A stretch of 64,000 bases of DNA from Luteibacter mycovicinus (GTDB lineage Bacteria > Pseudomonadota > Gammaproteobacteria > Xanthomonadales > Rhodanobacteraceae), in assembly GCF_000745235.1 (NCBI RefSeq), contig NZ_JQNL01000001.1, positions 3,652,001-3,716,000 on the forward strand, given 5' to 3'. Below the pieces are notes generated by a model. That model did not search any database. It saw only the letters and a program-made list of their open reading frames with translations, and had not been told where the DNA came from. Numbering within the stretch: position 1 is the first letter of the stretch; each line of letters begins with the position of its first letter. This document shows, piece by piece, positions 34,186 to 39,295 of the stretch. The translations under genes were made by a program, and so were the position numbers.

Positions 34186-35205
34186 TCAGGCGACGCGCCG
34201 CAACAGCGGTATTTTCCTTGCCAGGTGAATCACGAGAGCCGTCGAAACGAAGACCGCGAGCCAGACGATCGGGATGCGGGCCCACCGCGTGGTCAGATCG
34301 TTGTCGACGCGCAAGTGTTCCACATAGAGCCACAGGATCATGGGATGCAGCCCATAGATGCCGAGCGAACCGTCGGCGATCCACCGGATCGGCGTCATCA
34401 GCGGTGTCGGTACCCGGGTGATGGTCGTCAGCCATACGAAAGCGGACACGGACGACATCGCGACCAGAGGCGTCTGGTACGCGAAGAAGAACTCGTTCGG
34501 CTCGCCCCGGTATCCCGAATACAGGCACGTCGCCACGACGATACCCCCCACCGATGCCACGAAGACCAGCAGACATCGCCATCGGTCGGCCGGCGAGACG
34601 ACCGAAGCGTAGCGAGTGAGATAGGCTCCCAGCACGAAGTAGCCGACGAATCCTGAGAACAGCTGCACGCCCAGGAACGATGGCGGATCCCAGTCTTCCG
34701 ACACCAGCAGGCGCACCTGGTTGAGCACGCAGGACACCAGGAACCATAGCATCAGGAAGACCCTTGTCTCCGCTGGCGTCGACGCTCGCAACATCCTGCT
34801 CAGGAAGGGTGCGGAAAGATAGAGGCCCAAAGCCACGTAGAAGTACCAAAGGTGTCGGTACGGCTCCATGAGGTAATGGGCGACGTGAGCGGTCCATGAA
34901 ACGGAGCGGTCACCGAAGACGACGACATACACGACGGTCCAGAACACCAGGGGCGGCACGACGCGCGACGCGCGGCGGCGATAGAACGTCGGGATCGGCT
35001 CGTCCTTCCACAGCAGCAATGCCCCGGACAACATGAAGAAGATCGGAACCGCAGCCCTGGCGACGGCGTCGTATGTCACGGATGGCAGCCACATCGGCCC
35101 GAACGCATAGAAATAGGTGGCGGCGGTGTGGACCAGCACCACCATGGCGCAGGCGACCGCTCGTGTGACGTCCATGGCGGGCGAGCGACCCGCTTGCGGT
35201 GTCAT
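34186..35205 (-). CDS. membrane acyltransferase 3 family protein (O-acetyltransferase type)
   Basis: A 339-residue polytopic protein with about ten membrane helices. The family signature is near the N terminus (MDVTRAVACAMVVLVHTAAT, with the conserved His of helix 1), with FFMLSGALLLW and FYRRRASRVVPPLVFWTV following. Such enzymes (OafA, WecH, and rhizobial NodX and NolL) acetylate sugars using cytosolic acetyl-CoA. Its ATG overlaps the stop of the MFS gene (35202-35205), and it is last in a three-gene overlapping run with a methyltransferase. This suggests decoration of one small product. The substrate is not shown by sequence. Confidence 0.88.
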   Translation of the reverse strand: MTPQAGRSPAMDVTRAVACAMVVLVHTAATYFYAFGPMWLPSVTYDAVARAAVPIFFMLSGALLLWKDEPIPTFYRRRASRVVPPLVFWTVVYVVVFGDRSVSWTAHVAHYLMEPYRHLWYFYVALGLYLSAPFLSRMLRASTPAETRVFLMLWFLVSCVLNQVRLLVSEDWDPPSFLGVQLFSGFVGYFVLGAYLTRYASVVSPADRWRCLLVFVASVGGIVVATCLYSGYRGEPNEFFFAYQTPLVAMSSVSAFVWLTTITRVPTPLMTPIRWIADGSLGIYGLHPMILWLYVEHLRVDNDLTTRWARIPIVWLAVFVSTALVIHLARKIPLLRRVA

Positions 35206-36500
35206 CCGACCGGTCTCGACGTCGAAGGACTCGACCGATGAGCGCGGGAGTCAGCGTGTAAAGCGGCACCGAGTCGATGCACATGCAGTGCCCCCAGGAG
35301 CACGCCAAGCGTGATCGCCAGCGACAGGATCAGGGTCGCGGATTCGAAACCCAGCGCGTCCATGAGACCGCCGGTCAGCAAGGCAGCGATGGGCGTGCCA
35401 CACAACGTGGCCGCCGCAAAACGTGTCATCTCCTGGCCCACATCGCGTGACGGAACATGGCGTTGCAGCCACGACTGCGACTGGACGCCATGGCGGGCGG
35501 CGGCGACGGCAAGCAGGAAGAACGCCAGCAGCGTCATCGCCGGACCGCTTGCCTGATGAAGAACCAGGTAGGCGGAAGATGCGACGGCCCAGCAGGCCAG
35601 CATCCGGCGCACGGTACCTCGGAAGGAAGGCGCGACGCGCAGGGCGACCGCGCTGGCCACGCCGACACCGATGCACTGCACGACATAGATCAGCAGATAA
35701 CTCCCGCCTCGATATCTGGCCAGGATCAAGGGCAGCAGGACCTGCACCGGACCGAACACGAGCACCGAGCTGGCGAAGACATAGGCATGGAACACGCGTG
35801 GGATGGCTGCGGCCCCGGTCGTGTCCGACGGTGTGACCCGTGGGCTCGATGGCCCGCCGGGCGATCGGCGGATCGGGGCATGGCGGCTCAGCGCAGCCAG
35901 CAATGGCAGGGAGCAGAAGACGCAGATCGCGTCGATGCCGAATGCCACGGCCAATCCCGCATCTCCCCGGGTGCCGAAAACCAGCCATCCGGCAACCAGC
36001 GGCAGTACCACGGTCGCCGCCGCCGAGACCAGCGCGAAGATCGCGTTGCCGATCGACAGCCAGCCTTTGCGGACATACAAAGTGAACACGGCGCGCCCGG
36101 CGGGAAATGCCACGGCCCAGACGACGCCACCGAGTGCGGTCGACACGTATACGGCGACGATCGACATGCCACCCAGCCAGACCAGCGACGCGATCGCCGC
36201 ATTGGCGACGACGAAGAACCACCGACACAGGCGCAGCGTTCGCAACGGGTCGACGCGATCGAGCAGACGCGGGAAAGCCAGCAACAGACAAAGGCCCGGC
36301 GCAGCCTCGATCGCCATCGTGATGCCGAGGTCCCATGCTTTTCCGGTCAGCCGCATGACCAGAAACGGCAAGGCGACCAGCGTGAAGCTGGCTCCGAGCG
36401 TGGTCGTCAGATTGTCCAGAAGCAGCAGCTTGAAACGTGGCTCCCTGCGGCCAATGCGCCACACCCGCCGCAACCGGTCCATCGCTCCGATCATGCTCAC
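35202..36500 (-). CDS. MFS transporter, probable exporter
   Basis: A 432-residue protein with about 12 membrane helices and a polar central loop rich in Ser, Pro and Arg (about residues 205-235). The N terminus (FKLLLLDNLTTTLGASFTLVALPFLVM, DLGITMAIEAAPGLCLLLAF) resembles the MFS_3/EntS-like efflux group that exports siderophores and other secondary products. It overlaps the methyltransferase upstream (36497-36500) and the acyltransferase downstream (35202-35205) by ATGA, so all three are translated together. It may export the product made by the neighbouring enzymes. Substrate unknown. Confidence 0.85.
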   Translation of the reverse strand: MSMIGAMDRLRRVWRIGRREPRFKLLLLDNLTTTLGASFTLVALPFLVMRLTGKAWDLGITMAIEAAPGLCLLLAFPRLLDRVDPLRTLRLCRWFFVVANAAIASLVWLGGMSIVAVYVSTALGGVVWAVAFPAGRAVFTLYVRKGWLSIGNAIFALVSAAATVVLPLVAGWLVFGTRGDAGLAVAFGIDAICVFCSLPLLAALSRHAPIRRSPGGPSSPRVTPSDTTGAAAIPRVFHAYVFASSVLVFGPVQVLLPLILARYRGGSYLLIYVVQCIGVGVASAVALRVAPSFRGTVRRMLACWAVASSAYLVLHQASGPAMTLLAFFLLAVAAARHGVQSQSWLQRHVPSRDVGQEMTRFAAATLCGTPIAALLTGGLMDALGFESATLILSLAITLGVLLGALHVHRLGAALHADSRAHRSSPSTSRPVG

Positions 36501-37210
36501 GATCCGCTGGATCGATCCGCGTGCCGCATGAAGAACACATCGCCGTCGCTGTCCAGTCGCAGGCCGAACGCGGTGGCGACCGTTCGCAGTTTACGCTCGT
36601 CGAGCAGCCAGGCGGGCTCGACATCGTCCACGCCGACATCGAGCACCCATCGCATACCGAGCCAATGCGTGAGGATGACGCCATCCTCCGCCAGTGCTTC
36701 GGCGATCGCAGCGAAGTAACGCTCGAAGTGCTTCTGGCAGCAGGCAAAGCTGCTCAGGTTGTTGTCGACGATGTAATCGAACGACCCTGCATCGAAAGCG
36801 TTGGCGAAGGCTTCGCCATGCTTGTTCATGAGCAGTGGCGTATAGCCGGGCAGGTCGAGCATCTGTGCATGTCGCAATTCATCGACGGAGACCGTGACCG
36901 CGACAATGGCGCCGACTTTGTCCGCCAGCAGACTGGCGAGAGACGAATTGCCCGCCCCGACATGCAGGATGCGTTTGCCCGCCAGCGGAGCGTGCGTCAG
37001 CCAGCGATTGATGGCGATCTGGTCGTCGGTAGGCGGGCAGGACGAATAATCGATCAGTGGCCATGAAATGGCATCCGCGGCCGCGTTATGGCGTTCGACC
37101 GTTGGCTCGATGCCGCAGTCGCCGAGAATGACACCGATGTCAAATCTTCCTGCGGACGACGGCGTGCAAGGCACGTTTTCGGAAAGAAGTTTTTGAGAAG
37201 AGGGTGCCAT
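36497..37210 (-). CDS. class I SAM-dependent methyltransferase-like protein
   Basis: A 237-residue protein with a Rossmann SAM-binding motif at about residues 79-93 (KRILHVGAGNSSLASLL), an acidic strand-2 region and the post-II motif FDYIVDNNLSSFACC. The first 75 residues hold no recognisable domain. DNNLSSFACCQKH and THWLGMRW are unusual, and I cannot name a subfamily. It heads the minus-strand operon and is divergent from the glycosyltransferase across 170 bases, suggesting a shared regulator. The first about 60 bases are visibly less GC-rich than the rest of the locus. It could methylate a sugar, as NodS does with Nod factors, but the substrate is not known. Confidence 0.75.
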   Translation of the reverse strand: MAPSSQKLLSENVPCTPSSAGRFDIGVILGDCGIEPTVERHNAAADAISWPLIDYSSCPPTDDQIAINRWLTHAPLAGKRILHVGAGNSSLASLLADKVGAIVAVTVSVDELRHAQMLDLPGYTPLLMNKHGEAFANAFDAGSFDYIVDNNLSSFACCQKHFERYFAAIAEALAEDGVILTHWLGMRWVLDVGVDDVEPAWLLDERKLRTVATAFGLRLDSDGDVFFMRHADRSSGS

Positions 37211-38577: not shown

Positions 38578-38635
38578 TCAGCGCCGGATGCAAGGCGAGA
38601 CCAGGCTACGCTGCCCTTCTACCTGACGACACGGC

Positions 38636-39295
38636 ATGGATTACCACGCATTTCTCTCCCAGTTTCCGGATACGTACATCGGCCGTGGTCGCACCGATCG
38701 ACGCGAGATCGCTTTGACGTTCGACGACGGCCCGGGACGGGCGACATCGGCCTTGCTGACGACGCTGCGCGAGTGCGACGTGCAAGCCACCTTCTTCTGT
38801 GTGGGCGAGAAGGCACGCCGTGCGACCGACACGGTGCGGGCCATCGCACGTGACGGGCACGAGGTAGGCAATCACGGTTTCACTCATCGCGATCTGCGAG
38901 CGCTCGATCCTGGGACGTTCTGGATGACCGAGGTTCTGCCGGCCCGCGCGCTGCTGGAGGATGTGTCGGGCACGCCAGTGACGCTGTTTCGTCCACCCTT
39001 CGGCGAGATTTCCGCGGCCCAGACGGGGCGCCTCGCCGAAGAAGGCGTGACGCTCGTCGGCTGGTCGATCGATCCGCGCGACTGGGACGAGGTCGAGGCA
39101 AAGGACCACACCGGCCGTGTCGTGCGTCACGTGATCGAGCAGGTGCACCCCGGCGCGATCGTGCTGCTTCACGATGGTGACGAGGGCGAAAGGGCCCGTC
39201 CCGCGATCGCCGAGGTCGTCAGGCTCGTCGTACCCGCGCTGCGAACGATGGGTTTCAGCTTCGTCACCGCCGGTCACCTGCGGGACGCCCGGTAG
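38636..39295 (+). CDS. NodB-like polysaccharide deacetylase
   Basis: A 219-residue NodB-homology protein, almost exactly the length of rhizobial NodB (about 217), and without signal peptide or membrane helix. Catalytic and metal residues are present: TFDDGP (28-33), the HxxxH pair NHGFTH (His80, His84), the RPPFGE motif and IVLLHDG (His179). WSIDPRDWD and HPGAIVLLHDG match NodB closely. PgaB and IcaB deacetylases, in contrast, are exported and longer. A cytosolic enzyme would act on the short, newly made chain of the upstream glycosyltransferase, removing N-acetyl groups from GlcNAc. Only weak ribosome-site sequence precedes the ATG. Confidence 0.88.
   Translation: MDYHAFLSQFPDTYIGRGRTDRREIALTFDDGPGRATSALLTTLRECDVQATFFCVGEKARRATDTVRAIARDGHEVGNHGFTHRDLRALDPGTFWMTEVLPARALLEDVSGTPVTLFRPPFGEISAAQTGRLAEEGVTLVGWSIDPRDWDEVEAKDHTGRVVRHVIEQVHPGAIVLLHDGDEGERARPAIAEVVRLVVPALRTMGFSFVTAGHLRDAR

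Follow-up and report, generated by a model that had tools for sequence, protein, structure and literature searches.

What does a divergent five-gene locus of Luteibacter mycovicinus make, given enzymes that recall those of Nod-factor synthesis? The locus lies at 34186-39295 of a 64-kb window, the whole stretch of DNA analysed here (assembly GCF_000745235.1, contig NZ_JQNL01000001.1, 3,652,001-3,716,000), and its five genes were confirmed as two divergent units, one encoding a methyltransferase (MT), a major facilitator superfamily (MFS) protein and a membrane acyltransferase, the other a membrane family-2 glycosyltransferase (GT2) and a CE4 de-N-acetylase. A preliminary description of this DNA had likened the set to NodC, NodB and NodS; the likeness holds for the types of enzyme present but not for kinship, as the scores fall below the NCBIfam cut-offs, the proteins sit in separate clades and MT has no NodS match. 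The answer favoured here, at a probability of about one half, is a transferable, self-contained pathway for a short amino-sugar oligosaccharide that undergoes de-N-acetylation and methylation in the cytosol before the MFS protein exports it. New here are the conservation of the unit in Luteibacter and Lysobacter, the insertion of the block at an otherwise empty site and a palindrome that recurs.

Conservation and insertion of the unit

The core is defined as MFS-MT / GT2-deacetylase in divergent order, and all genome samples hold one genome per species. MT was present in 3 of the 23 Luteibacter genomes, each with the full core, and in 15 of the 20 Lysobacter-genus genomes (Lysobacter antibioticus and L. 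enzymogenes among them), all 15 carrying the four core genes in an identical divergent order; loci L040-L043 and L045-L047 lie on the same contigs as loci filed under genome (G) handles and were not counted twice. The preliminary description had held that its proposal would fall if the two halves rarely co-occurred in relatives, and had called for a synteny search in Luteibacter; in both genera the halves were found together wherever MT was. The MT searches gave 20 MT-positive genomes, 18 with the full core and two (G232 and G510) without it. MT was also found in at least 2 of 369 class and at least 3 of 299 order genomes (E<=1e-8) and in at least 1 of 289 phylum genomes (E<=1e-15), the own genome included each time, these counts being lower bounds drawn from the part of the first-look candidates that was scored per genome. 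There was no match in plasmids, the family of G510 has MT in 1 of 43 genomes (G510 itself), and a database of 5.8 billion proteins holds 38 homologues at E<=1e-3. Judged from these matches, MT would be a small and rare family in its own right that occurs mainly in clusters of this type.

No open reading frame (ORF) of at least 90 amino acids flanking the core is common to the Luteibacter and Lysobacter loci. The TonB receptor was considered as a conserved partner and rejected, since it clusters between the two other Luteibacter alone, with no Lysobacter or window ORF. The core is a conserved functional unit. No such cluster is described in the literature on Lysobacter and Luteibacter or on clusters of NodC-like and NodB-like genes, as far as the entries, mostly in the form of listings and including PMC9040847, tell.

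The unit has also moved. The genes bordering the block, for an FAD-linked oxidase (32719-34167) and a prolyl iminopeptidase (39372-40328), both identified by eye, adjoin directly in each of the 22 other genus genomes, including both Luteibacter that carry the core at another location. In six aligned empty sites homology stops no more than about 25 bases past the oxidase stop codon; in five of the six it restarts at 39309-39354, leaving 18-63 bases to the start of the iminopeptidase gene, and the sixth alignment is gappy and begins earlier, from 39246. No long flanking repeats were found at the block, insertion sequences and tRNAs not having been searched for, and its GC content is near that of its surroundings, dipping to 0.59-0.60 at the promoter. 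The five genes entered a new site together as one block, which moves as a unit.

Core enzymes and the proposed pathway

GT2 likely starts at the ATG at 37381 (398 amino acids) rather than at the GTG further upstream that opens the longest frame. It had been described as a processive-type enzyme with all four catalytic motifs, and every motif was located (DDGS at 86, DSDT at 143, VEDIAW at 234 and QRRRW at 272); with membrane helices at both its N- and C-terminal ends, these D, DxD, ED and QxxRW motifs would place it among the processive membrane GT2 enzymes. It scored 96.6 bits with the NodC profile (TIGR04242, cut-off 550) and 143 bits with that for PgaC/IcaA (TIGR03937, cut-off 422.3), the latter being its best NCBIfam profile. 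The phylogeny that had been suggested as a check set it apart: in a hand-chosen tree of 46 rows (29 of 120 listed proteins and 17 other rows) the window enzyme falls in a 23-row clade, supported at 100/100, which excludes the three NodC rows, PgaC, IcaA and the GT2 portions of frames that fuse GT2 to a deacetylase, five rows being long-branched, two of them within this clade. The GT2 family and NodC have a common fold, because hhalign matched them at 99.8% probability across the catalytic domain. The structure check agreed with the earlier proposal, an AlphaFold2 model (predicted local distance difference test score, pLDDT, 90.0; predicted template-modelling score, pTM, 0.89) lying nearest to hyaluronan, cellulose and chitin synthases, plus a mannosyltransferase. 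Other genomes of the family and a Sphingobium plasmid have a single long reading frame in which a GT2 region adjoins a CE4 deacetylase region (L024, L027, L030 and L095), an architecture distinct from that of the window.

These structural neighbours are polymer synthases, and together with the PgaC/IcaA profile they would suit a GT2 that makes a longer exopolysaccharide (like poly-N-acetylglucosamine, PNAG, or like chitosan or hyaluronan) which the other genes decorate; Acyl_transf_3 genes are also common in polysaccharide loci, and one homologue of the window acyltransferase lies in an O-antigen-like locus of G003, so judged by eye from translations. Such a polymer seems unlikely, with GT2 far under the PgaC cut-off and in a separate clade, a deacetylase and MT that look soluble, and an MFS protein in place of a polymer export apparatus. 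The genome moreover has its own PgaB/PgaC pair elsewhere (L159:6530-9576, 40% and 52% identical to E. coli, with no tblastn match to PgaD at E<=1e-3), because of which PNAG is disfavoured as the product of the locus. On the score, the clade and this separate pair, GT2 was rejected as a PNAG synthase. Polymer-secreting synthases have more membrane helices than the window GT2, which has one N-terminal helix and a small C-terminal set; going by the model, so few helices may suit a short product that is released into the cytosol.

The deacetylase carries the CE4 active-site set (TFDDGP, NHGFTH, RPPFG, SIDPRDW and LLHDG). It had been described as a 219-residue protein with no signal peptide and with stretches common to NodB, and both points stand: no hydrophobic segment was found by a Kyte-Doolittle scan, which is not a signal-peptide predictor, and the protein is 37% identical to S. 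meliloti NodB over 197 columns that take in WSADPRDW and GAIVLLHDG. It thus has the features of the NodB type, namely the CE4 motifs, no hydrophobic segment and a length of about 215 amino acids. Its score with the NodB profile (TIGR04243) was 125.6 bits against a cut-off of 240, below the 135.4 bits obtained with PdaB, itself under the PdaB cut-off of 237.4. In a hand-chosen tree (27 of 120 listed proteins and 10 other rows, with long branches for IcaB and three others) the window protein groups weakly with Lysobacter and Luteimonas proteins (86/50, or 82/86 with one extra row) and lies outside the NodB clade, the four NodB rows forming their own clade at 100/99. The related solved structures are CE4 peptidoglycan, chitin and xylan deacetylases.

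The same biochemical types in one locus, the identity to NodB and the hhalign match to NodC could all be read as a true Nod-factor-type pathway to a lipo-chito-oligosaccharide. This is very improbable, with GT2 and the deacetylase below the NodC and NodB cut-offs and in separate clades, an MFS protein rather than NodI/NodJ, and, as had been noted before, no NodA-like gene among the five (Pfam); a genome search for NodA (PF02474) also gave no match, a weak negative in that 0 of 14 controls were detected. True membership of the NodC, NodB and NodS families was rejected on the cut-offs, the clades and a NodS likeness limited to the S-adenosylmethionine (SAM)-binding part.

MT (METHYLTRANSFERASE) has a class I methyltransferase fold (model pLDDT 87.1), and the Foldseek matches, among those listed, are generic class I methyltransferases. 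It matched no NodS family at E<=1e-3, and the hhalign comparison with NodS reached 84.6% over 106 columns around the SAM-binding part, with no wider likeness. YdjC/ChbG is a chito-oligosaccharide deacetylase family with a fold different from CE4. In G510 (L055:201-3856) a 34% MT relative has as its neighbours a YdjC-family protein (PF04794, 169.4 bits), a GT2 and a GT8, so that the pairing of MT with a deacetylase recurs with an unrelated deacetylase family; by analogy this context supports an MT that would act on a freed amine. The G510 locus may itself be a second, independently assembled locus for amino-sugar methylation.

The MFS protein is kept beside MT in the core loci and scores far under the cut-offs for TIGR00900 and EntS (47 bits, cut-off 324, for the latter). 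No outer-membrane or periplasmic polymer-export gene is found among the five. A deacetylase without a hydrophobic segment, a soluble-type MT, an exporter-type MFS protein and the lack of a polymer-export gene together suggest that the product is finished in the cytosol. In the pathway that we infer, down to the sugar and the chain length, the membrane GT2 would use a UDP-sugar, most likely UDP-N-acetylglucosamine (UDP-GlcNAc), to extend a short chain; the soluble CE4 enzyme would then remove an N-acetyl group, probably from one terminal residue, and the dedicated MT would methylate the freed amine before the MFS protein carries the finished small molecule out.

In the window strain the membrane acyltransferase (ACYLTRANSFERASE) may add an O-acyl group. 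It was rejected as a core gene, having no tblastn match in 18 other core loci of 10.7-20 kb each (2 Luteibacter, 15 Lysobacter-genus and 1 Luteimonas). Homologues occur in 4 of 23 genomes of the genus, the own included, three of these being the core-bearing genomes; the three further homologues are 57-64% identical, and in the two other core-bearing Luteibacter the gene is on the contig of the core, about 24-27 kb away. The naive chance that all three core genomes fall among the four with the acyltransferase is 0.002, uncorrected for relatedness. On gene content, a strain-specific decoration is the likeliest role.

Relatives of GT2 also occur in three clusters like those of class IIb microcins (L048:1097-9218 of an Alteromonadaceae bacterium, L087:6989-15110 on a V. 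alginolyticus plasmid and L111:5225-13562 in G993). All three have a SelO/MchC-like protein, a C39-type ABC exporter and HlyD; an HlyC-like acyltransferase (Pfam or tblastn) and a radical SAM gene with a small Gly-rich ORF are found in L087 and L111. In class IIb microcin systems MceC is the glycosyltransferase. MchC proteins are described, in the part of the source available, as relatives of SelO with a role in microcin maturation (PMC3281104). The gene content of the three clusters suggests a glycosylated microcin type that has not been described. The sugar there is presumably attached to something, and these relatives (36-47% identity) lend some weight to a glycoconjugate, in which GT2 puts one or a few sugars on a lipid, peptide or secondary metabolite and deacetylation and methylation precede export. 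The weak EntS likeness of the MFS protein and the TonB receptor gene that adjoins the cluster in the two other Luteibacter point the same way. We regard this as doubtful, as none of the five genes is of the nonribosomal peptide synthetase, polyketide synthase or lipid-anchor kind (no search was aimed at short precursor peptides), and neither the flanking ORFs nor the TonB receptor unite the Luteibacter and Lysobacter loci.

Palindromes and regulation

The palindrome TGACANCGNTGTCA is matched exactly at 37129 and 37365, flanking the MT start, and nowhere else in the window, against about 0.002 such sites predicted from base composition; with one mismatch allowed, shuffles average 0.19 matches and 2 of 100 reach two. 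Both palindromes recur in each of the other two Luteibacter clusters, at spacings of 236, 296 and 285 bases across the three, although the rest of the intergenic DNA has diverged. The conservation of the first may be partly coding because the site lies in the MT codons for FDIGV. A scan of the own genome (1.2 Mb in 60 stretches, window excluded) found only two exact sites, both in L174, and three one-mismatch sites, one of them also in L174. There, L174:2490-12154 (own genome 42490-52154) is a locus of the beta-glucan utilisation type, with genes for a tryptophan-halogenase-like protein, a TonB receptor, a GH3 protein nearest to exo-1,3/1,4-beta-glucanase, a sugar-transporter-like MFS protein and a LacI-family regulator.

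The pattern resembles a LacI-family operator, which makes the two palindromes candidate sites through which a LacI-family repressor probably controls both arms. An operator for NagR, the GlcNAc regulator, was considered as the identity of the palindrome but gained no confirmation. NagR is named as a LacI-family regulator in the available parts of two Shewanella papers (PMC2996990, PMC3223726), where TGACA was not found, and it does not appear in the available part of PMC1790865. A scan of the promoter region for sigma-70 and terminator signals found 0. A single exact TGACANCGNTGTCA also stands directly upstream of HlyD in the Alteromonadaceae microcin-like cluster (L048:1063-1076).

The layout of the locus is given in Table 1. 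The two divergent units with a shared control region of 170 bases are as first described. The ATGA overlaps reported between genes hold for MFS/acyltransferase; that of MT/MFS is GTGA, because the MFS start codon is GTG.

Table 1. Features of the Luteibacter mycovicinus locus, in window coordinates.
Feature	Position	Strand	Basis or remark
Membrane acyltransferase, accessory	34186..35205	-	Pfam PF01757 (Acyl_transf_3), 132.3 bits
MFS exporter, weakly EntS-/H+ antiporter-like	35202..36500	-	PF07690 (MFS_1)
SAM-dependent methyltransferase (MT)	36497..37210	-	Methyltransf_11; Methyltransf_25 weak, below cut-off
Divergent promoter region, 170 bases	37211..37380	.	gap between divergent starts
Membrane GT2, processive-synthase motifs	37381..38577	+	Glyco_trans_2_3, Glyco_tranf_2_3
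CE4 (NodB-fold) de-N-acetylase, predicted cytosolic	38636..39295	+	Polysacc_deac_1; 219 aa
Inserted block with all five genes	34168..39310	.	borders approximate; comparison with empty sites
Palindrome TGACACCGATGTCA, candidate LacI-type operator	37129..37142	.	within MT 5' coding region
Palindrome TGACATCGTTGTCA, candidate LacI-type operator	37365..37378	.	directly upstream of GT2 start; kept in two other Luteibacter clusters

Weighing the pathway against known systems

Several observations weigh against a short, cytosolically finished amino-sugar oligosaccharide. GT2 lies outside both the NodC and the PgaC clades, which makes its sugar and linkage tentative, and the PgaC profile outscores that of NodC. 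Two other genomes of the genus, G016 and G021, hold GT2 relatives at 37-39% identity and five family genomes hold relatives at 30-34%, all of them with no nearby match to the other core genes, and because they stand without them this type of GT2 also works without the core partners; the three relatives in microcin-like clusters hint at another acceptor. The generic fold matches of MT do not separate N- from O-methylation, and in G232 an MT relative comes after a GT4 and another MT on a contig of 3.9 kb that shows no deacetylase, a context that by analogy supports an MT acting on a glycan and no more. Luteimonas abyssi has MT, GT2 and the deacetylase but no MFS match. In 16 other core loci (15 Lysobacter-genus and 1 Luteimonas) the MT-GT2 region lacks the palindrome, the best sites there having 3-5 mismatches.

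If the short amino-sugar oligosaccharide is nonetheless the product, the locus would make non-lipid N-methylated amino-sugar oligosaccharides accessible to genetic study, Nod-like backbone chemistry would have arisen more than once, and a conserved secreted molecule would be added to Lysobacter, a genus used in biocontrol. Compounds of that class are reported, in the part of the source available, to inhibit insect and fungal GlcNAcases selectively (PMC11933530).

The nearest known product type would be TMG-chitotriomycin of Streptomyces anulatus, given in the available parts of its sources as an N,N,N-trimethyl-glucosaminyl chito-oligosaccharide that inhibits GlcNAcase (PMC11933530, PMC10329021); for the window the product, its linkage and N-methylation are proposed by analogy. 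Both would be non-lipid chito-oligosaccharides with a deacetylated and N-methylated non-reducing sugar, needing this enzyme set, the likeness being one of enzyme logic alone; no biosynthetic genes for TMG-chitotriomycin were found in the literature searched, which consisted mostly of listings. A bolder version, which we put forward as speculative and rather unlikely, is a mobile Luteibacter/Lysobacter pathway for a soluble N-methylated, perhaps N-trimethylated, chito-oligosaccharide that would act as a TMG-chitotriomycin-like signal or inhibitor against fungal or insect chitin metabolism and, in Luteibacter, would be induced by cell-wall sugars through a LacI-type repressor. Were this true, Nod-type chemistry would have evolved out of another GT2 clade and another methyltransferase, and would lack the acyl step.

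PNAG deacetylases are extracytoplasmic. The PgaABCD/IcaADBC systems are like the window locus in joining a GT2 to a CE4 deacetylase; they differ in that the Luteibacter genome has a separate PgaBC pair elsewhere. Class IIb-like microcin clusters have GT2 relatives within the same 23-row clade (P0031 and Valg being two of the three, as placed in the tree), but peptide-maturation and C39-type ABC export genes replace the deacetylase, MT and MFS genes. For the NodC-NodB-NodS core, the order of steps proposed here would have a direct precedent: in Rhizobium IRBG74, according to the part of the source available, NodS carries out N-methylation strictly after mono-deacetylation, and chito-oligomers that are deacetylated and N-methylated are still produced when nodA is mutated (PMC5080398), an order independent of acylation. 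That core and the window locus both bring together a processive-type membrane GT2, a CE4 de-N-acetylase without a hydrophobic segment and a SAM methyltransferase. They differ in that the five window genes include no NodA, NodI, NodJ or NodD, that the window enzymes fall outside the Nod families, and that the window locus pairs its enzymes with MFS export and belongs to the Gammaproteobacteria.

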